A DNA stretch of 64,000 nt from Echinicola rosea (GTDB taxonomy: Bacteria > Bacteroidota > Bacteroidia > Cytophagales > Cyclobacteriaceae). Location of the stretch: NCBI RefSeq assembly GCF_005281475.1, contig NZ_CP040106.1, forward strand, positions 1,059,501-1,123,500. Direction: 5' to 3'. The translations under genes and the position numbers were made by a program. Shown in pieces: positions 42,082 to 59,685 of the stretch (position 1 is the stretch's first letter; the number at the start of each line of letters is the position of its first letter). The notes beneath the pieces are model-generated. The model worked only from the letters and a program-made list of their open reading frames with translations, searched no databases and was not told the origin of the DNA.

Positions 42082-42486
42082 ATAGAAGCCCGGGGATTGG
42101 GGTCCATTGCAAATGGAATCCAGTATTGGTGCCAAGCTGCTGATGCCCATACACTCGTCTATGAGGTCTGTGCTGTGGCTGTCATGGATACGATCCCCGC
42201 GACTTTCTATTAAACCCGGAATATGCATTAGCCTATCTGTTGCGACCTGATCCGCCGCGGCGGACAAAATCAGTCGTTTCACTTTGGTTTTCGGCATAAC
42301 CGTAGCGGTGCTACGCTAATGCCTCCAAACTAACTGATTTTCTTGCACTTTCAGCTCTCACTACGATTCCCAACGCATAATCCGGGTTAAAAAGGGAGGT
42401 TTGGAGACCGTATCTCTTGGGGCGATCTTTCCTCTAAAAACCACCTTGAAACCTCCTAAACTTTCAAACATTACAACACCAAAACC

Positions 42487-50414: not shown

Positions 50415-53231
50415 CTAATGCGCTTCCAACCAATCCTTGCCGACACCGACTTCCACCTGCATGGGGACTTCGATCTCTAAGGCCTTGGTCATGATGGACG
50501 GAATTTCCTTTTTCAACAAATCCACCTCATCCTTATGCGCATCAAAAACCAGTTCATCGTGTACCTGAAGGATCATTTTGGATTTCAGCTGTTGTTCCTG
50601 CATCCACTTATGCACATGGATCATGGCCACTTTGATCATGTCTGCAGCGCTTCCCTGGATAGGAGCATTGATGGCGTTTCGCTCGGAATAGCCGCGCATG
50701 GTGGCATTACGGCTGTTGATGTCCCGGAGGTAGCGGCGGCGACCAAGGATGGTCTCGACATATTCGTTTTTGCGGGCCTTTTCGATGCAGTCGTTCATGT
50801 ACTGGCTCACGGCAGGGAATTCCTTGAAATAAGCATCGATAATTTCCTTAGCTTCACCTCGCGGAATATTGAGCCGCTGTGACAATCCGAAGGCAGAAAT
50901 CCCATAGATAATGCCAAAATTGGCCGTTTTGGCCTTTCGGCGCATATCGCTGGTCACGTCGTCCAATTCCACCTGGAAGATCTTGGCAGCTGTGGTGCTG
51001 TGGATATCTCGTCCTTCCCTAAATGCCTCGATCATGGATTCATCCTGCGAAAAAGCCGCCATGATGCGCAGTTCGATCTGACTGTAATCTGCCGCCAAGA
51101 TTACGTGATCGTCATCCCTAGGCACAAAGGCCTTTCGGATCTCCCTGCCGCGTTCTGTTCGAATGGGAATATTCTGTAAATTTGGGTTGATAGAGGAAAG
51201 CCTCCCTGTAGCTGCAACTACCTGATTATAAGTCGTATGTATGCGTCCAGTTTTAGAATTGATCAAAGTGGGCAAAGTATCCACATAGGTATTTTTCAAC
51301 TTCACCAATTCCCGGTAATCCAGGATGGCTTGGGCAATCTCATGCTTTGGCGCCAGCTTGGAAAGCACCTCCTCACCTGTGGCAAATTGGCCCGTTTTGG
51401 TTTTCTTGGCCTTCGGGTCGAGCTCCATCTTCACGAAAAGTACTTCACCCAGTTGCTTCGGAGAAGCCAGGTTAAACTTGACACCTGCCAACTCATACAC
51501 TTTCTTCTCAATCTGGACAATGTCTTTCTCCAAAGCTGTGGATAACTCGGCCAAACTGTCCTTGTCAATTCTTACACCCTCATATTCCATGGCCGTCAGC
51601 ACGGGGATGAGTGGTGTTTCCACTTCATAAAAAAGCTTCTCCAATCCGCGCTCCTTTAGGTCTGGATTCAGTTTTTGTGCCAGCTGCAAGGTAATGTCGG
51701 CATCCTCAGAAGCGTATTCTACCACTTTATCCACATCGGCATCCCGCATATTTCCTTGCGATTTTCCTTTCTTGCCAATAAGCGTTTCGATGGATACGGG
51801 CCGGTAATTCAAATAATGCTCCGCCAGCCAATCCATATTGTGCTTCCCTTCCGGTTCGATCAGGTAATGCGCCAGCATGGTATCGTAGAGTTTGCCCTTC
51901 AGCCCAATATCATAGTTCTTAAGCACCAGCGCATCATATTTTAAGTTTTGGCCGATTTTTGTGACCGCCTCATTTTCAAAAACGCCTCTTAGTGGCTCCA
52001 GAAGCTTTTTGGTTTCTTCTTGGTCCGCGGGAACGGGAATATAAAAAGCCTCACCCGCCACGTAGGCAAAGGACAAGCCCACCAATTCTGCTTTATTGGG
52101 ATCCAGATCCGTGGTTTCGGTATCAAAACAAAGTTCCTCCTGTAACTTCAAATATTCTACCAACTCCTCAATGGCCTCCAGTCCATCCACCTTGTGATAG
52201 GCATGTACCATTGAAGCCACCGAAGCCAACTGCTCCGGTTGCGGTATGGGGTTGATTTCTTCTATTTCCTCTTCCTCCTGCGCTTGATCCTCTGGTCCAG
52301 TAAACAGCCCCAATTGCTCATTGACTTTTACAGCCGGTTTTTTCATCTTCTCCCCAAACACACGTTGGGTCAAGGTCCGAAATTCCATTTCTGCAAAAAG
52401 GGCCTTCAGCTTTTCTTCATCTGGCCCATCATATTCCAAGGCCTTGGGATCAAACTCGATGGGGACGTCCTGTTTGATGGTGGCCAGTTCCTTTGATAGC
52501 AGGCCTTGCTGACCAAAGTTTTCCACATTTTCCTTTTGCTTGCCCTTCAGGTCACCGACATGCTCCAATAGGCCCTCGATGGTACCATAGGCTTTTAACA
52601 GCTTCTTGGCCGTTTTTTCGCCTATTCCCGGGATGCCCGGAATGTTATCCACAGCATCTCCCATCAGGCCAAGGATATCCCGCACCTGGTCTGGATCTTC
52701 AATTTCCCATTTTGCACAGACTTCCTTTGGCCCCATTACATCCACCGCATTGCCCATAAAGGCGGGCTTGTACAGAAAGATGTGCTCTTCCACAAGCTGT
52801 CCATAATCCTTGTCAGGCGTCATCATGTAAACCTCAAAATCCTTGTATTCGGCCTTCTTGGCTATCGTCCCGATAATGTCATCGGCCTCATAGCCATCCA
52901 GCTCCAAAATAGGGATGTTAAAACCCTCCACAATCTGCTTTACCCAAGGAATGCCTACGGTGATGTCTTCTGGCTGCTCTTGCCGATTGGCCTTATAAGC
53001 CTCAAACTGCTCATGGCGAAATGTCGGTGCCGCCGTATCGAAGGCCACCGCAATATGACTGGGGGATTGCTTCTCGATCACCTCCAAAAGGGTATTGGTA
53101 AACCCTAACATAATTCCGGTGTTCAACCCTTTGGAATTGATCCTTGGGTTTTTACTAAAAGCAAAATGGGCCCGATAAATCAGGGCCATGGCGTCTAAAA
53201 GAAAGAGTTTTTTCTTGTCGGAACTGGGCAT
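50415..53231 (-). CDS. polA: DNA polymerase I
   Basis: 938 aa. Residues 1-300 are the 5'-3' exonuclease (FLLDAMALIYRAHFAF, YEADDIIGT, GIPGIGEKTAKKLL). Residues about 360-540 are the 3'-5' exonuclease; the DxE pair is intact in CFDTETTDLDP, so proofreading is probably active. The polymerase domain has motif A ILAADYSQIELRIMA, motif B RRKAKTANFGIIYG and motif C LQVHDELVFDA. An acidic Glu-rich linker (about 310-335) separates the first two domains. It is transcribed alone. Confidence 0.97.
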   Translation of the reverse strand: MPSSDKKKLFLLDAMALIYRAHFAFSKNPRINSKGLNTGIMLGFTNTLLEVIEKQSPSHIAVAFDTAAPTFRHEQFEAYKANRQEQPEDITVGIPWVKQIVEGFNIPILELDGYEADDIIGTIAKKAEYKDFEVYMMTPDKDYGQLVEEHIFLYKPAFMGNAVDVMGPKEVCAKWEIEDPDQVRDILGLMGDAVDNIPGIPGIGEKTAKKLLKAYGTIEGLLEHVGDLKGKQKENVENFGQQGLLSKELATIKQDVPIEFDPKALEYDGPDEEKLKALFAEMEFRTLTQRVFGEKMKKPAVKVNEQLGLFTGPEDQAQEEEEIEEINPIPQPEQLASVASMVHAYHKVDGLEAIEELVEYLKLQEELCFDTETTDLDPNKAELVGLSFAYVAGEAFYIPVPADQEETKKLLEPLRGVFENEAVTKIGQNLKYDALVLKNYDIGLKGKLYDTMLAHYLIEPEGKHNMDWLAEHYLNYRPVSIETLIGKKGKSQGNMRDADVDKVVEYASEDADITLQLAQKLNPDLKERGLEKLFYEVETPLIPVLTAMEYEGVRIDKDSLAELSTALEKDIVQIEKKVYELAGVKFNLASPKQLGEVLFVKMELDPKAKKTKTGQFATGEEVLSKLAPKHEIAQAILDYRELVKLKNTYVDTLPTLINSKTGRIHTTYNQVVAATGRLSSINPNLQNIPIRTERGREIRKAFVPRDDDHVILAADYSQIELRIMAAFSQDESMIEAFREGRDIHSTTAAKIFQVELDDVTSDMRRKAKTANFGIIYGISAFGLSQRLNIPRGEAKEIIDAYFKEFPAVSQYMNDCIEKARKNEYVETILGRRRYLRDINSRNATMRGYSERNAINAPIQGSAADMIKVAMIHVHKWMQEQQLKSKMILQVHDELVFDAHKDEVDLLKKEIPSIMTKALEIEVPMQVEVGVGKDWLEAH

Positions 53232-53561
53232 GGATATAATCTGCTTAGAATGTACGAATTAGCCTGCCGGCCAATCTTGGCACCAGCACAGGGAAGGCTA
53301 AATTACAAATTATAATGGAAAGGAAACGCAGTCTTCACCCAGTTATTGGTAATCTCATCTGCTACACCCTTCCAGTTGTTCCACCAGCACAACTGATGTT
53401 CCAACAGCCCTGCTGTAGGATCACTTAAAATTGGGTTTTTAACTCAATATGGATCAAGTCATATTTTTGGGGGCTTTACTACAAGGACGCATTACAAATG
53501 CCTTGCTCAACAGTTCGCGCTTCTAATCCGTAACTAGAGCGTAATTAGCCCCTGCCTTATG

Positions 53562-54437
53562 CTGGAACAGTAAGAAGCCACGAAGGCACCAAGGCGCTAA
53601 GTGTTTTTTGAAAATTATAGATCAAGCACACGACAATCGGTTAGTCCGACTAAATTTTAAATACTCAAAAGAAGTACGCTTAGGGGAAAACACATAAGGC
53701 TTTTTTAAATTAACTCGTCCTCATGAGGATGATCAGAAAGTCCCCTTTAGGGGATTAAGGGGCAGGTTTTGGCAGATTTTCTTCGATCGCAAAATCTTTT
53801 CGGATCAAGCCGGTTGTTCCGACAGCTGTGCTGCGGAACCAAGTAAAATTGAGTTTTTAACTCAATACCACATACAGGAGTTATGCTTTGGAGTATGATT
53901 ATGGGTAACAACATAGGAACATAGGCTACAATAGGATGATATGCATTTAGTCAGCGGCTGACTAATACTGGAACAGTAAGAAGCCACGAAGGCACCATGT
54001 CACTAAGTATTTTTTGAAAGTAATAGACCAAGCACACGACAATCGGTTGGTCCGTCTAAATTTTACATTCTCAGAAGAAGTATGCTTAAGGGAAAACACA
54101 TAAGGCTTTTTTAAAATTAACTCGTCCTCATGAGGATGATCAGAAAGTCCCCTTTAGGGGATTTAGGGGCAGGTTTCGGCAGATTTTTTTCGAAAGCAGA
54201 ACCCCGGTTGTTCCGACAGCTGTGCTGCGGAACCAAGTAAAATTGAGTTTTTAACTCAATACCACATACAGGAGTTATGCTTTGGAGTATGATTATGGGT
54301 AACAACATAGGAACATAGGCTACAATAGGATGATATGCATTTAGTCAGCCGCTGACTAATACTGGAACAGTAAGAAGCCACTAAGGCACCATGTCACTAA
54401 GTATTTTTGAAAGTAATAGACCAAGTACTCTACAACC
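53562..54437. repeat. tandem repeat of about 400 bp, two and a partial copy
   Basis: Units start with CTGGAACAGTAAGAAGCCAC at 53562, 53968 and 54362 (periods 406 and 394). The right half of unit 1 and that of unit 2, running on into the start of the next unit, match over about 220 bases with three differences, so duplication is recent. A degenerate fragment also precedes unit 1 (about 53390-53450). Each unit has a 12-bp palindrome TCCTCATGAGGA (53718, 54125), a CCCC/GGGG hairpin and an ATTGAGTT/AACTCAAT hairpin. No coding potential is visible. Unit 3 breaks off at about 54437. Confidence 0.8.
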
Positions 54438-54639
54438 CCCAATTCATCCCCCTTTGTGACTTCTATGTTGAAAAACAAGAGAATCAGCCAAAATCCTTTC
54501 ATATAGGGTGTTTTTTTACAGTTTTCTCCCATAGTTTGTCAAAACAATCGACTAACTTGAAAGTGTTGGGCCGAAACGGAATCAAGCTCTGCCGGGGGGC
54601 AACTTGCCAGGGATAGGTCCTTCCGATGAATTATATTCA

Positions 54640-54934
54640 TTTTAACTGCGGGCTTGGGAATCCCTGTCCGCAGTTTTCAGTATAATTCAGAAGCGGTATG
54701 CCTAAGAAAACCCCACCGGTGAAACCTGATCTTCACGGCCCGGCTTTTTTATACCGTCAAACTTACCTCTTTAATCAATCTTCTATCAGCGGTCTGTATC
54801 TCGCCGCATCGTATTTTCATTTCAAAGAGGAGGGGGATGCAACCTTTGTGTAGCGGTCCTCCCTGTTCAGGGTGCTGCAATCCCAAAATTTCATTTCTTC
54901 CCCCATCCTGATTTTCAAGGTATATTTTTCCTTA
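54640..54934 (-). other. structured non-coding flank of the IS110 transposase gene
   Basis: Some 295 bases downstream of the transposase stop hold a CTGCGG/CCGCAG hairpin with an inner GGGA/TCCC pair (54646-54673) and a GGTGAA/TTCACG pairing (54719-54737). They have no reading frame. IS110-type elements carry a bridge RNA in a non-coding flank, so this is a candidate site; the element's exact ends could not be found. Confidence 0.3.
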
Positions 54935-56017
54935 TTATGATACTACTCCGGTCACATATTCTTTCCGGTGGACGATCACATACCTGATCCTGTTCAGCAG
55001 TTTCCTGGCAATCCTTATGATGGCCTTGTTCTTTGGCATTTTTTTGATAAGTTCATTGAACTTGGCCATTAATGCCGGATCCTGCCTTATGGCTACCCAG
55101 GAGGCTTCGATCAGCATGATCTTCAGCTCCTTTCTTCCTCTGTTGATCAGTTTGCCCACAACCATTTTATCGCCAGACCCATACATTCTTGGCACCAATC
55201 CCACATAATTACAGAGTTCATCAAGTCGCTTAAACCTTGTAAAATCTCCCAGCTGGGTCAGAAAGGCCATCGCCGACATTAAGCCTATTCCCGGAACGGT
55301 TACCAAAAGATTATAACTGTCCTTATAGCGGGATGTCCGGGAAAGCTCACGGACTTGCCTGTTGATGCCCAACAGCTCCTTTCTTAGGTTATTGACAATT
55401 CGCACATAGTTGTCAATGTGTGGACCTACCATCGGATCTGCACCGGAGAGGCTTAACAGCCAATCTGTGTAGGGCCTGGACCAATACCTTGTTTGTGCTG
55501 TTGTAAAACGTTCAGCCATGCTTATTCCAAATTGAAACAACAACGACTTGACCCTGTTCTTGTTTCTCGCAATATCTTTTACTATCCGGAACCTCTGACG
55601 GACTAACCCCCGGTCAGCTTCCAATTGCCTGTCCGGTATGTGGATGCCCGACAACGCGCCGCTTCTCAGGGACCGCGCCAGTTTTCTGCTGTCGGCCTTA
55701 TCGGTCTTCTGCAACTTCTCTTTCTGGCTGGTGGGAACATCTGCCGGATTTATCACCATGCAGTTTACACCTAGGTCCCGTAATCGCCGGCAGGACCCAA
55801 AACCACTGAACCCCGCCTCATAAACGGCGTGATAGGCAGCTCCAGGGAAGTTCTTTTAAAGATAACGCACCAGTTGCTCCGCATCCGGGTCACGGCTCAT
55901 CGTCTTGTGTTCGTATTGCTCGCCATAGATGCTGACCTTCCAGCTTTTCTTGTGGTAGTCAATACCTACATAAACAGATTGCCCCTCAAATATCTTTTGA
56001 CTATCTTTCCTTTGCAT
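54935..56017 (-). pseudogene. IS110-family transposase, interrupted by a nonsense codon
   Basis: The intact frame would run from the ATG at 56017 for 360 residues, but codon 54 is TAA (55856-55858); the flanking codons read RYL-stop-KNFPGA, so one substitution (probably AAA to TAA) explains it. The rest is complete: the DEDD residues D20 (YVGIDYHKK), E67 (VYEAGFSG), D106 and D109 (KTDKADSRKLAR), and the C-terminal Transposase_20 region with TVPGIGLMSAMAFL and YGSGDK. An ATG at 55759 opens a 274-residue frame that lacks the first catalytic residues. The element is probably no longer able to move itself. Confidence 0.88.
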
Positions 56018-56202
56018 AAGCTTGGTTCTTAACGTTTACATGATTTAATACTCTTGTTAAGTTAAGAATTTTGGCTTATGCACTTTTCAAACATAATACC
56101 TTTGTAGCCAACCAAAAAAATCAGTGAAAATCTGCCCAATCAGCGTCATCAGCGTGCCATTCAAAACGATTCCGCTTGACCCGAAATATAATCAAGAAAT
56201 TA

Positions 56203-56381
56203 AAAAAAGTGACCCTAAACACAAAAAGCCGCGATTAAGCGGCTTTTCTGTACCAGGAGCGGGACTTGAATCTACCTGGCTCTCCAATCCAATGCGTATA
56301 GTGTAGGTGTCAGCAAAGGTGTTACAGGCGGCAATCCTATTTAATTTTGGCCATCTAGACAGGCCCGCACGTCCTAATGGA
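56203..56381. repeat. duplicated 3' half of tRNA-Leu with terminator, split by a 93-bp insertion
   Basis: Bases 56203-56270 are identical to 56628-56695 (68 of 68): 20 bases of the tRNA-Leu 3' end, the tRNA terminator and adjoining sequence. Bases 56364-56381 are identical to 56696-56713, the next 18 bases of the tRNA. Between them lie 93 bases (56271-56363) not present in the real tRNA, inserted at the start of the T-loop. The two copies flank the GIY-YIG gene as direct repeats, like att sites. Confidence 0.85.
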
Positions 56382-56613
56382 AGCTGTCTCTCAAATACCG
56401 CTTGCCATTTCGGGATTTGAGGTATTTCTCATGCTCCCTTGCCTGCAACCGTGTATCAAACTCTTTGGTATATATCAACTTGAACGGCCTATAGGGTTTA
56501 GTGGTTCGTTCATACCCTGCATTGTGTCGATTGATTCGTTTTGGGAGGTTTGACGTCATTCCGACGTAGATGTAATTGCGGTTTTCACTGGAAATGGCAT
56601 AAACAGTAAACAT
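56374..56613 (-). CDS. Small GIY-YIG nuclease
   Basis: 79 aa from the ATG at 56613. The longer open frame (to 56718) reads through tRNA-Leu and is excluded. The GIY-YIG core is VYAISSENRNYIYVGMT, followed by NLPKRINRHNAG with the catalytic Arg, and FDTRLQAREHEKYLKS with the metal-binding Glu. It is a single-domain protein of the URI/UPF0213 type. The last codons lie within the duplicated tRNA fragment, so the gene and the duplication arose together. No DNA-binding domain is attached. It may be a homing or repair nuclease. Confidence 0.85.
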   Translation of the reverse strand: MFTVYAISSENRNYIYVGMTSNLPKRINRHNAGYERTTKPYRPFKLIYTKEFDTRLQAREHEKYLKSRNGKRYLRDSFH

Positions 56614-56647
56614 ATTTGATAAACTATAAAAAAGTGACCCTAAACAC

Positions 56648-56672
56648 AAAAAGCCGCGATTAAGCGGCTTTT
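56648..56672 (-). terminator. terminator of tRNA-Leu
   Basis: A 9-bp stem AAAAGCCGC / GCGGCTTTT, directly after the tRNA 3' end on the minus strand. An identical copy is at 56224-56247 in the duplicated segment. Confidence 0.8.
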
Positions 56673-56675
56673 CTG

Positions 56676-56759
56676 TACCAGGAGCGGGACTTGAACCCGC
56701 ACGTCCTAATGGACACAAGATTTTAAGTCTTGCGTGTCTACCAATTCCACCATCCCGGC
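56676..56759 (-). tRNA. tRNA-Leu (anticodon UAA)
   Basis: 84 nt. The acceptor stem GCCGGGA pairs with TCCTGGT (two G-T pairs) and the discriminator is A; CCA is not encoded. The D-arm has AATTGGTAGAC, the anticodon loop is CTTAAAA (TAA), there is a long variable arm as in class II tRNAs, and the T-loop is TTCAAGT. It is cotranscribed with tRNA-Gly upstream. There is no group I intron in the anticodon loop. Confidence 0.96.
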
Positions 56760-56823
56760 TTCTTCTATGGGTATAGAAGTAATATGGTGAGTTGTTTGGG
56801 CGTAAAATAAACCCAGAAACAAG

Positions 56824-56848
56824 AAAGCCCTTTTTTTCAAGGGCTCTT
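56824..56848 (-). terminator. hairpin after tRNA-Gly
   Basis: GAGCCC pairs with GGGCTT around a T/A-rich loop on the minus strand, followed by TTCTTG. It is weak and may allow read-through to tRNA-Leu. Confidence 0.4.
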
Positions 56849-56851
56849 GAG

Positions 56852-56924
<73 letters not shown>

Positions 56925-56974
56925 TTGTGATGAAAATCGTGACGTTGACCGTTTTATCTCCGTCATTGTGAGTG

Positions 56975-57005
56975 CAAATGTACGCAGCTTTTTGAAAACC
57001 ACAAA
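56975..57005 (-). promoter_or_regulatory. promoter of the tRNA-Gly/tRNA-Leu unit
   Basis: On the minus strand TTTG, a 19-base spacer, then TACATTTG: an exact match to the Bacteroidota -33/-7 consensus. Transcription would begin about 44 bases before tRNA-Gly. Confidence 0.8.
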
Positions 57006-57075
57006 TATCACACTCAATATTTTTTAAGATTTCTCACCATACAATGCTACCATGCTGATTTTCAAGGAGATTTTT

Positions 57076-59685
57076 TTAATCCAGTTTTTTCTTGATTTCA
57101 TTGAGTTTTAGCAAGGCTTCCACGGGGGAAATGGTGTTGATGTCTATGCTGTCCAATAATTCCTGAGCCTCCTTGAACTTCGGGTCGATCTCAAAAAGAC
57201 TCAGCTGGAAGTTGTTTTTAGGCACATCATTCATCTTTTCCTTTTGTTGGTTCATGTCCTTGTCCTTTTCCAGATGCCCCATGATCTCCGAAGCACGTAA
57301 GACTACCGGGTTAGGCATCCCGGCCATTTGTGCCACATGGATCCCAAAGCTATGCTCACTGCCGCCTTCTTTTAGTTTTCGCATAAAGATGACTTTGTCG
57401 GCCACCTCTTTCACGGATACATTGAAGTTTTTCACCTTTGGAAAATCCTCCGCCAACTGATTGAGCTCGTGGTAATGTGTCGCAAACAGTGTTTTGGCAT
57501 TGAACTTCGGATGGTTGTGAAGGAATTCCACGATGGACCAAGCGATGGAAATCCCATCATAGGTGGACGTACCACGGCCGATTTCATCCATCAGCACCAA
57601 GCTGCGATCAGAGAGGTTGTTCAGGATGCTGGCCGTTTCGGTCATTTCTACCATAAAAGTGGATTCCCCTTTGGAAAGATTATCCGATGCTCCTACCCGT
57701 GTAAACACCTTGTCGATAATGCCTATTCGCGCATACGAGGCGGGCACAAAACTTCCCATTTGCGCCATCAGTACAATCAGTGCGGTCTGGCGAAGCAGTG
57801 CCGACTTACCGGCCATATTGGGGCCTGTGATGATGATGATCTGCTGGGTGCTGTTATCGAGGTAGATGTCATTGGGCACGTAATCTTCCCCGATGGGCAG
57901 TTGCTTTTCGATCACGGGATGACGGCCATCTCTAATTTCCAGGCTGTCCGTATCGGCGACTTTTGGCCGGCAATAGCCATTTTGGCTGGCGACGATGGCA
58001 AAAGACAGCAAACAGTCCACGGTGGCCAAAATCCGGGCATTTTCTTGGATTTGGGTGACGTATTCCACGGCACTTTGCACCAGCAAATTGAAATATTTAT
58101 GCTCCAGCACCACGAGCTTTTCTTCGGCATGGAGGATTTTATCTTCGTATTCCTTCAGCTCTTCCGTGATGTACCGCTCAGCATTGACCAAGGTTTGCTT
58201 TCTGATCCATTCGGGTGGTACTTTGTCCTTATGGGTATTGGACACTTCCAGGTAATAGCCGAAGACTTTATTGTAAGCGATTTTCAGGGAGCTGATGCCC
58301 GTGCGCTGAATTTCCCGCTGCTGGATCTGTACCAGGTAATCCTTCCCAGAAGTAGATAGCTTGCGGTATTCGTCCAGCTCGGCGTCCACACCATCACAGA
58401 TGATATTCCCCTGATGGGTCAGCATGGGCGCATCTTCCTTGAGCTCCTTGTCGATTTTTTCCAGCAAGAATTCACAGGCGTTGATCTGGTCGCCCAGCTT
58501 TTTGAGGGAAGGGTTCTTTTGCTTTTTGAGCAATTCCTTAATGGGAAGGCTGTTTTTCAGGGCTTTTTTCAGCTGGTTCATCTCACGGGGATTGATCCGT
58601 GCCACGGCGACTTTGGAAATCAGCCTTTCCAAGTCACCAATGTGTTTCAGGTGACTGAGGATTTCTTCGGCCAGGTCCTGCTCTGCATGGAAATGGTCCA
58701 CGACTTTCAGCCGCTCTTCGATGGGTGCCTTTTCCTTAAGGGGCAATACCATCCATTTTTTCATCATGCGGGAGCCCATCGGCGTTACCGTCTGGTCGAG
58801 GATTTGGATCAGCGGCACCCCTCCATCCTGCTGTGGATAAACCAACTCCAGGTTTCGAATGGTGAACTTGTCCAGCCAGACAAATTTCTCCTCGGCAATC
58901 CGGGAAATCGCTGCAATATGCTTGACTTCCTTGTGCTCGGTCTCTTCCAGATAGTAAAGGATGGCACCTGCAGCGATGATGCCCTGCTCCAGGTTTTCGA
59001 TGCCAAAGCCCTTAAGATTAGCGGTTTGGAAATGTTCGGTCAGCTTTTCGTAAGTGTAATCATACTGAAACACCCAGTCCTCGCAGTGGAAGGTCGTAAA
59101 ATCATCTTTGAGCAACTCGGCTGCTTTGGTCTTGTCCGCTTTGGAATAAATGATCTCGGATGGGCTAAAGCTCTGCAGGAGTTTCTCGATATAGGAAGCC
59201 TTACCCTCGGCACACATAAATTCCCCTGTGGATAAGTCCAAAAAGGCAATGCCCAAATTTTCCTTATTAAAATATACCGATGCCAAGTAATTGTTTCGGC
59301 GTTTGTCGAGGACATTGTCATTAAAAGAAAGACCTGGCGTGACCAACTCGGTGACGCCCCGCTTGACGATGCCCTTGACATCCTTGGGGTCTTCCAGCTG
59401 GTCGCAGATGGCCACGCGATTGCCGGCACGGACGAGCTTTGGCAGGTAGCTGTCCAGCGAATGGTGTGGAAAACCGGCCAGTTCGATATGGCTGGCGGCA
59501 CCATTGGCACGCTTGGTGAGGACGATGTCCAAGACCTTGCTAGCTTTGACGGCATCTTCACCGAATGTCTCGTAAAAGTCCCCCACTCTAAAAAGCAACA
59601 ATGCCCCTGGATGTTTGGCCTTGATGCTGTTATATTGCTTCATCAGGGGCGTTTCTTTCGCTGCTTTTGCCTTTGCTTTGGCCAT
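57076..59685 (-). CDS. mutS: DNA mismatch repair protein MutS
   Basis: 869 aa. The mismatch-binding domain I includes [14 protein letters not shown] with the Phe-x-Glu wedge. The core and clamp domains follow, then the ABC ATPase with Walker [14 protein letters not shown] (about 625), the signature motif [13 protein letters not shown] and Walker [16 protein letters not shown]-terminal helix-turn-helix dimerisation segment is present. It is a MutS1-type, full-length protein. The adjacent TrmH-type gene is divergent. Confidence 0.97.

Follow-up and report, generated by a model that had tools for sequence, protein, structure and literature searches.

Small GIY-YIG nuclease genes between intact and damaged tRNA copies in Echinicola rosea and other Bacteroidota: candidate tRNA-specific homing cassettes

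SegB, a free-standing GIY-YIG homing endonuclease encoded beside tRNA genes in the phages T4 and T6, has been implicated in breaks within tRNA-containing sequences, and the tandem amplification of a segment comprising tRNA-Tyr and segB requires the enzyme; for phage T6 the authors attribute this amplification to microhomology through which the 5' region of the tRNA recombines with the 3' region of segB (PMC13096335). SegB is the closest precedent for the units described here: in both a GIY-YIG gene lies at tRNA genes, and the arrays that we propose to arise from the cassettes would parallel the segB amplification model. SegB is phage-borne and is described there without a damaged, hairpin-tagged tRNA copy, whereas the Bacteroidota cassettes are chromosomal and isotype-matched across families, and their Leu-linked nuclease has no match in phage records. 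Stand-alone GIY-YIG proteins of the UPF0213 type are represented by the PDB entries 1zg2 and 1ywl (E 1.9e-15 and 4.3e-14), which are labelled hypothetical and are of similar size to the cassette nuclease (107 and 96 aa); a non-tRNA clade of the GIY-YIG domain that we sampled has no tRNA link. SegB is larger than the cassette nucleases. The Ssn proteins of Neisseria, small GIY-YIG nucleases specific for single strands, act on repeats in the genome, and we know of no tRNA targeting by them. Islands, ICEs and prophages that integrate at the 3' ends of tRNA genes are integrase-driven and kilobases long; they likewise rebuild the 3' half of the tRNA gene and leave the displaced copy as a direct repeat, whereas the cassettes are short (425 bp here), lack an integrase, have 5' forms and carry palindromes in the displaced copies. 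The group I introns found in tRNA-Leu(UAA) and in further tRNA genes likewise combine a tRNA target with a homing-type nuclease, whereas the cassette lies beside an uninterrupted tRNA.

The window that we analysed is a stretch of 64,000 nucleotides from the 6.06-Mb single-contig genome of Echinicola rosea (G000). On its minus strand follow one another: tRNA-Gly(GCC) (56851..56924; ARAGORN), the upstream neighbour, outside the cassette; an intact tRNA-Leu(UAA), the presumed target (56675..56759; ARAGORN, Rfam RF00005 58.1 bits); a terminator-like hairpin (AAAAGCCGC..GCGGCTTTT, 56649..56672, with an identical copy at 56224-56247); a GIY-YIG nuclease gene (56374..56613; G000:C1:1115877-1116113); an 18-nt tRNA fragment (56364..56381); a 93-nt insert (56271..56363); and a 68-nt fragment (56203..56270). 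A preliminary description of this DNA had noted that 68 + 18 bp of the tRNA-Leu 3' half, its terminator and the adjoining tail occur twice, 425 bp apart, around a 79-residue GIY-YIG gene that ends in the duplicated fragment, and a repeat search and a Pfam scan bear this out. The 68-nt repeat (56203-56270 and 56628-56695, spacing 425) and the 18-nt repeat (56364-56381 and 56696-56713, spacing 332) are both 100% identical; they are contiguous in the tRNA-proximal copy (56628..56713, 86 nt: tRNA-Leu nt 47-85, terminator and tail) and are split by the 93-nt insert in the distal copy, the first part of which is tRNA-Leu nt 47-64 and the last part, also aligned to the empty site of G010 (see below), nt 65-85 with terminator and tail. 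In our judgement a perfect repeat of 68 nt is not a chance match. The gene matches PF01541 (E 5.5e-18; 65.5 bits, curated cut-off 22.6), encodes 79 aa when counted from the ATG at 56613 and has its stop (56374) inside the distal 18-nt repeat.

In the distal copy the T-arm is broken, with GTGCGGG on one side and TTCAAG on the other side of the insert, whose outermost bases (CCTGTCTA...GCCAGGTAGA) match a 20-nt hairpin, CCTGTCTACCGCCAGGTAGA, that is uninterrupted in the Echinicola genome G007. The 93-nt insert folds no better than its shuffles in G000, and the hairpin at the window locus is degraded. The complete unit measures 425 bp, its longest frame (114 aa) is that of the GIY-YIG gene, and neither a tyrosine or serine integrase nor an HUH transposase was found in it, no frame exceeding 114 aa (the Pfam scan of the unit covered the 114-aa frame; on the opposite strand the unit has two short frames of 58-60 aa). 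The earlier phrase of a nuclease instead of an integrase holds as far as the missing integrase goes; that the nuclease itself moves the cassette is something we infer. A reading of the unit as a group I intron is ruled out, since no Rfam intron family was matched in positions 53200-57600 and the tRNA-Leu is uninterrupted.

The pair of tRNA-Gly and tRNA-Leu is kept beside mutS in 11 of 11 Echinicola genomes, and the nuclease is present at tRNA-Leu in five of them (G000, G003 with two tandem copies, G006, G007 and G008) and absent in six (G010, G004, G009, G001, G005 and G002), which is a presence/absence difference at one site among close relatives. G010, the closest relative, has 95% identical flanks and an empty site: BLAST aligns positions 56100-56270 and 56627-57200 of the window to 1385-1555 and 1487-2065 of the G010 locus (L009), and because the two pieces overlap there by 69 bp the filled and the empty site differ by one 425-bp unit. 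The comparison with empty sites had been proposed beforehand, a duplication ancestral in gene-free relatives being named as the outcome that would speak against an insertion; in the stretches fetched the 6/11 tRNA-Leu loci without the gene have one T-arm and acceptor copy each and a second one in 0/6 cases. In these stretches the duplication was found in none of the six, and an ancestral duplication without the gene is rejected on that ground. With direct repeats and an empty site, the insertion footprint at a tRNA 3' end stands for this locus.

On a tree of ~2 kb of upstream (mutS) DNA, where G000, G010 and G003 form an unresolved fork, the filled/empty state changed at least 4 times. The long T-arm insert is homologous between G000 and G003, the insert of G007 is the short form (the 20-nt hairpin), a distal copy is not recognisable in G006 and only its start is recognisable in G008. 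A terminator variant, GTGGTTA, occurs in all three G003 copies and was not seen in G000, G010 or G004; its being common to the G003 copies suggests that these are kept alike by recombination. Presence and absence differ among Echinicola genomes, no difference being seen between strains of one species, and a relative 81% identical to the window nuclease occurs in Echinicola soli. Genus-wide, among the fetched matches (a part of those listed), the 11 genomes have differing sets of cassettes, the targets being tRNA-Leu, Met, Arg, Val, Ala, Asn and Thr (Leu and Met in G000; Leu, Ala, Val and Asn in G003; Thr and Ala in G010), and the Echinicola genes without a tRNA match comprise ten loci of the other kinds and, at L286, the second copy of a tandem. 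At the tRNA-Met locus of G000 (L003; G000:C1:4322205-4323300) two nuclease genes, 99% alike and with a unit length of 445 bp, each have a tRNA-Met 3' fragment behind them, in which a 14-nt palindrome, TCCGCCGCGGCGGA, replaces part of the anticodon arm. The tRNA-fMet locus of the same genome (L270; G000:C1:840272 on) has such a tagged 3' fragment ~70 nt downstream of the intact tRNA and no nuclease gene, and is a cassette scar.

Three samples describe the spread of these genes. In the order sample a protein query found a match at E 1e-3 in 36 of 98 genomes, and the resulting loci (L038-L107, omitting the weak rows G045:C1:1490821, G120:C41, G066, G127:C123 and G051:C12) have a same-strand tRNA sequence nearby in 34/70 cases. 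A tree of the order, own and genus loci (91 members) splits into two clades, with all linked loci in one; near the 28 members of the other (27 from the order sample) no T-arm was found. Within the tRNA clade 34/43 order-sample loci are tRNA-linked, one more (L085) lies behind tmRNA, and eight have no same-strand tRNA or tmRNA match (L053, L060, L066, L072, L075, L076, L090 and L097), opposite-strand tRNAs being present at L060, L066 and L090. The phylum sample, searched with an alignment query, comprised 296 genomes, 193 of which matched at 1e-6, an upper figure, as members of the clade with no tRNA link may be counted in it. Among the matches listed we took 89 high-scoring loci, 88 of them usable, and 79/88 are tRNA-linked (58 genomes, 55 with a linked locus), a link being a blastn match at E 1e-4 on the same strand, at most 350 nt before or at most 320 nt after the gene; for random genes ~0.3% would be expected, assuming ~45 tRNAs per genome. 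Nine loci have no tRNA match (L165, L170, L174, L175, L177, L178, L194, L207 and L212); among the eight other than L165, L207 lies at tmRNA and L177 and L178 abut RNase P RNA. The third sample consists of 33 loci from named genomes, obtained with the Leu nuclease as query. In all 30 relatives of at least 56% identity the gene has tRNA-Leu sequence next to it; they include Cyclobacteriaceae, Prolixibacteraceae, Paludibacteraceae, Flavobacteriaceae and Saprospiraceae and, provided that the binning of the MAGs is right, Melioribacteraceae, Neomarinimicrobiota and Saccharibacteria; the weaker matches are two Cloacimonadota at tRNA-Met, and one other named locus lies at a contig end.

The suspicion of a recurring cassette, put forward from the single window together with the remark that GIY-YIG genes elsewhere might lack a tRNA association, is thus answered by the 79/88 phylum-sample loci and by all 30 named relatives: the cassette family is real and recurrent. 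To the earlier description we add the palindrome that is common in the damaged copy and the second GIY-YIG clade without a tRNA link. The annotation of the relatives goes no further than 'GIY-YIG nuclease family protein' or 'putative endonuclease', and in open-licence literature (titles and starts of abstracts) we found no description of chromosomal tRNA-GIY-YIG cassettes in Bacteroidota; as far as that literature shows, the family is undescribed in this form. A tblastn search at E 1e-5 with the Leu nuclease matched none of 50,697 phage and 72,556 plasmid records, and a pattern search for close relatives of the Leu and Met nucleases found none in viral contigs; a phage or plasmid origin is rejected within the limits of these searches.

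The cassette is a minimal free-standing GIY-YIG gene between an intact target tRNA and a damaged second copy of it. A full tRNA stands beside the gene in 135 cases, upstream in 94 (3' form, as in the window) and downstream in 41 (5' form); the earlier restriction of the footprint to tRNA 3' ends does not extend to the family. A second alignment method recovered the second tRNA copy across the gene in 103/134 cases, while in 31/134 cassettes with an intact tRNA no damaged copy was found at the score used; by a lenient criterion, the tRNA matches of both sides have at least one isotype in common in 77/112 linked hits. The intact tRNA is unaltered and the damaged copy altered, often by a hairpin: 76/103 second copies have an insert of at least 8 nt and 27/103 none that long, and in some of the latter, Met and Asp cases among them, part of the tRNA sequence has given way to a palindrome. 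In the short inserts (up to 40 nt, n = 66) a perfect stem of at least 6 occurs in 40, compared with 7.7% of 1320 control segments drawn at random from these loci, and one of at least 5 in 51, compared with 20.9% of the control segments; in 15 it is absent. By eye, the palindrome class mostly tracks the tRNA type, with CCTGCC...GGCAGG at Leu and Arg and TCC...GGA at Met, Asp, Asn and others (L222 and L217 are among the exceptions); G000 and G052 each have one of both classes, at different tRNAs.

For several kinds of target the insert position is characteristic. The 3' forms at tRNA-Leu(UAA) have it at nt 62-65 in 12/13 cases, the 13th (L234) at 64 by the other alignment method, and those at other Leu isoacceptors are spread from nt 56 to 71, with one at 25; in 5' forms it lies at nt 23/24 in 9/10 Leu and at nt 21-23 in 6/6 Arg cases, and the two-piece Met cases have it after the anticodon in 6/7, the Cloacimonadota case at 52. 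The recurring unit of ~300-470 bp, with the same gene at many tRNA types, often begins 10-70 nt from the tRNA. Runs of 2 to 5 genes at 250-620-nt spacing were found in 29 genome records of the combined samples, where one genome may be present twice, as a named record and under a G handle, and the run in G027 consists of two different cassettes around one tRNA-Ser; examples are two Leu cassettes in G003, two Met in G000, five Leu in G359 and five Met in G296. Two loci, L042 and L044, had looked like tRNA-Arg genes split by the nuclease, which is rejected by an Rfam search of G045 and G052 that shows a full downstream tRNA; as its 5' end overlaps or abuts the gene, these are 5'-form cassettes.

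A few loci lie at RNA genes other than tRNA. At L207 (736-1437) a second tmRNA 3' end, with TGCACAGCATCCCTTTGGGA within its T-loop, stands downstream of the gene, the same design as in the tRNA cassettes, and at L085 (1561-2300) a GIY-YIG gene of the same clade lies behind tmRNA. In L177 and L178 (two genomes, genus code g137) the gene ends where the RNase P RNA match starts; direct repeats of RNase P were looked for in L177 and none was found. By eye, the sequence before the gene in these two loci resembles the RNase P 5' region in inverted orientation. A separate observation concerns L045 (G038), where short tRNA-Pro 5' copies with hairpins stand head to tail upstream of the gene, before an intact tRNA-Pro.

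The catalytic domain makes up 70 of the 79 aa of the window protein. Invariant in 30 aligned relatives are Y4, Y15, G17, R25, H29, N30 and E61 (alignment numbering; +1 with Met), and these residues would fit an active GIY-YIG site, in which we take the conserved Tyr, Tyr, Gly, Arg and Glu positions to be catalytic. The closest solved sequences are UPF0213 proteins, followed by SLX1, a structure-specific nuclease; in NCBIfam and PHROGs the Leu protein has weak matches only, to intron, homing and other endonucleases, and the Met protein has none. dN/dS was 0.04-0.11 in the 4/21 pairs with computable dS (dS 0.6-1.9), with 0.10 for the window gene versus G003, and the nuclease gene is under purifying selection.

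On a FastTree phylogeny of 198 nucleases (146 linked tips, 17 isotypes) the tRNA isotype changes 38 times, compared with a mean of 94.9 and a minimum of 87 in 1000 label shuffles; the label is that of the nearest tRNA sequence and may be wrong in tRNA clusters (e.g. L241). Because the named-genome sample came from a Leu query, the isotype test was repeated without those loci, and 76/117 nucleases share the isotype of their nearest relative outside their own family (shuffles: mean 11.3, maximum 28); the phylum sample alone gives 41/79 (mean 7.6, maximum 20). The isoacceptors Leu UAA, CAA, CAG and GAG fall within one nuclease clade. Vertical inheritance at one locus can contribute to this match, as an alternative to repeated homing, and a nuclease lineage appears tied to one target tRNA by a signal that includes vertical descent.

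We put the probability at roughly 60% that the window unit belongs to a large family of tRNA-gene-specific selfish cassettes with a homing-type nuclease. This reading builds on the anatomy, the empty sites, the recurrence, the match to tRNA identity, the tandem arrays, the presence and absence within a genus and the purifying selection described above, to which it adds a cut, a cut position, a repair route and a role for the hairpin that we infer from sequence. The nuclease would cut its cognate tRNA gene in a loop region (the D-loop, the anticodon arm or the T-loop, depending on the lineage), and repair of the break from a cassette-bearing copy would insert the missing tRNA half, the nuclease gene and the hairpin at the cut. 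A working tRNA would thereby be rebuilt on one side, the old half remaining on the opposite side, tagged by the palindrome at the cut site. In the 3' form the rebuilt half would be the 3' half and the inserted piece would consist of tRNA nt 65-85, the terminator, the gene, the tRNA part up to nt 64 and the hairpin, placed between nt 64 and 65, so that a working tRNA is restored on the left, while on the right the end of the broken target finds its homology in the displaced 3' half; the 5' form would be the mirror image, with the 5' half rebuilt and the cut at the D-loop or the anticodon. The anatomy agrees with an insertion where the hairpin stands.

The presumed target site is still present in the intact tRNA, and the logic of a cassette that makes itself immune therefore fails there; a carrier would not be fully protected. 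A cut of the intact tRNA in a carrier followed by out-of-register repair would give rise to the tandem arrays, repair from the displaced copy on the sister chromosome would add one unit, and recombination between the repeats would lead to clean loss of the cassette. A wider version, to which we give somewhat less than even odds, extends this to a tRNA-parasitic class throughout the phylum, in which minimal GIY-YIG nucleases, each lineage specialised to one isotype (in some cases to tmRNA), would split their target gene at a loop, rebuild it, mark the displaced half with the hairpin as a recognition or protection signal and amplify themselves into arrays. The hairpin-tag mechanism stands a chance of being new.

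The palindromes are not confined to the cassettes. Counts of the motif TCCGCC(0-8)GGCGGA, with those of its reversed control in brackets, are 79 (2) in G000, 52 (6) in G010, 12 (1) in G003, 0 (2) in G071 and 0 (3) in G045, and CCTGTCTACCGCCAGGTAGA also occurs inside dispersed repeats (L262). A copy of TCCGCCGCGGCGGA was noted in the window itself at 42251-42264 (0.04 expected in the window); it adjoins a likeness of a ~200-bp dispersed repeat with outer ends AACCCGCATTATGCA.., which was seen at six other fetched places of G000. Either the nucleases have spread the palindromes, or an independent repeat is tolerated in dead tRNA copies, and this question of their origin is the basis of the alternative that survives best, unlikely as we consider it to be: a single-strand hairpin transposon, in which the GIY-YIG protein recognises a hairpin (the palindrome or the folded tRNA gene) and moves both cassette and hairpin in the manner of IS200/IS605 or RAYT/REP, tRNA genes being its targets. 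Such an element would be in keeping with the palindromes at typical places in many damaged copies, with their genome-wide dispersal, with a protein that has little beyond the catalytic domain and whose nearest relatives are UPF0213 and then SLX1, and with linked targets that are strongly folding RNA genes, tmRNA included. However, the unit has neither an HUH nor another transposase, 11 of the 12 G000 palindromes fetched are not tRNA fragments (the twelfth is the tRNA-fMet scar, and six of the 12 belong to a single family of dispersed repeats) and, by eye, the hairpin class follows mostly the tRNA type rather than the genome and the insert ends seem too variable for a defined transposon end.

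The other explanations are considerably less probable than the hairpin transposon. If the protein acted on the tRNA itself, as RNA, the damaged hairpin-bearing copy could be transcribed as a decoy or antidote of a toxin; the protein lineage would then also match the tRNA isotype, the match spans the isoacceptors of the Leu clade, and many cassettes start 10-70 nt from the tRNA. We nevertheless regard this as improbable: GIY-YIG domains are DNA nucleases, the damaged copy was not found in 31/134, in 5' forms with an insert it stops at nt 68 or before and is without a full 3' half, and at the window locus a terminator-like hairpin lies between tRNA and gene. Equally improbable is domestication for the benefit of the host, for example in the control of tRNA gene copy number or in shielding tRNA sites from incoming islands. 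Purifying selection and presence in many families would agree with it, but the gene is patchy within one genus, broken copies occur, a nuclease-free scar is present at tRNA-fMet in the same genome and the tRNA copies are mostly damaged instead of extra working ones. A remnant of an island, ICE or prophage that lost its integrase and kept the GIY-YIG gene as a passenger would explain the classical footprint of 3'-half direct repeats and an empty site in relatives, but is very improbable with a 425-bp unit without a frame above 114 aa, 5' forms that duplicate the tRNA 5' half and the negative phage, plasmid and viral-contig searches, and is largely ruled out by the recurrence of the ~300-470 bp unit with the same gene at many tRNA types and in arrays.

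If the homing-type reading is true, tRNA loci in a large part of Bacteroidota genomes would harbour unrecognised selfish elements of ~300-470 bp, the homing logic of the phage enzyme SegB would extend to bacterial chromosomes, and broken tRNA copies beside intact ones would be explained. The family would also be a natural source of minimal nucleases, dozens of them, for each of which a target can be predicted, and the hairpin tag raises the question how so small a domain finds its target.

Some further repeats and mobile elements were seen next to the subjects treated above. In the window, 54935-56017 holds an IS110-family transposase frame (PF02371 and PF01548) without a start, a separate frame at 55856-56017 looks like an IS110 N-terminal piece and has no Pfam match, and between polA and the IS110 element two near-identical stretches lie ~390 bases apart (53747-54381), with repeated small frames at 53747-53987 and 54117-54381. 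Elsewhere in the same genome a GIY-YIG gene of the non-tRNA clade (L002; G000:C1:2248975) stands between copies of a repeat, CGTCATTGCGAAC...GAAGCAATCTC (1337-1391 and 1835-1924), and may represent a second repeat-linked GIY-YIG type.
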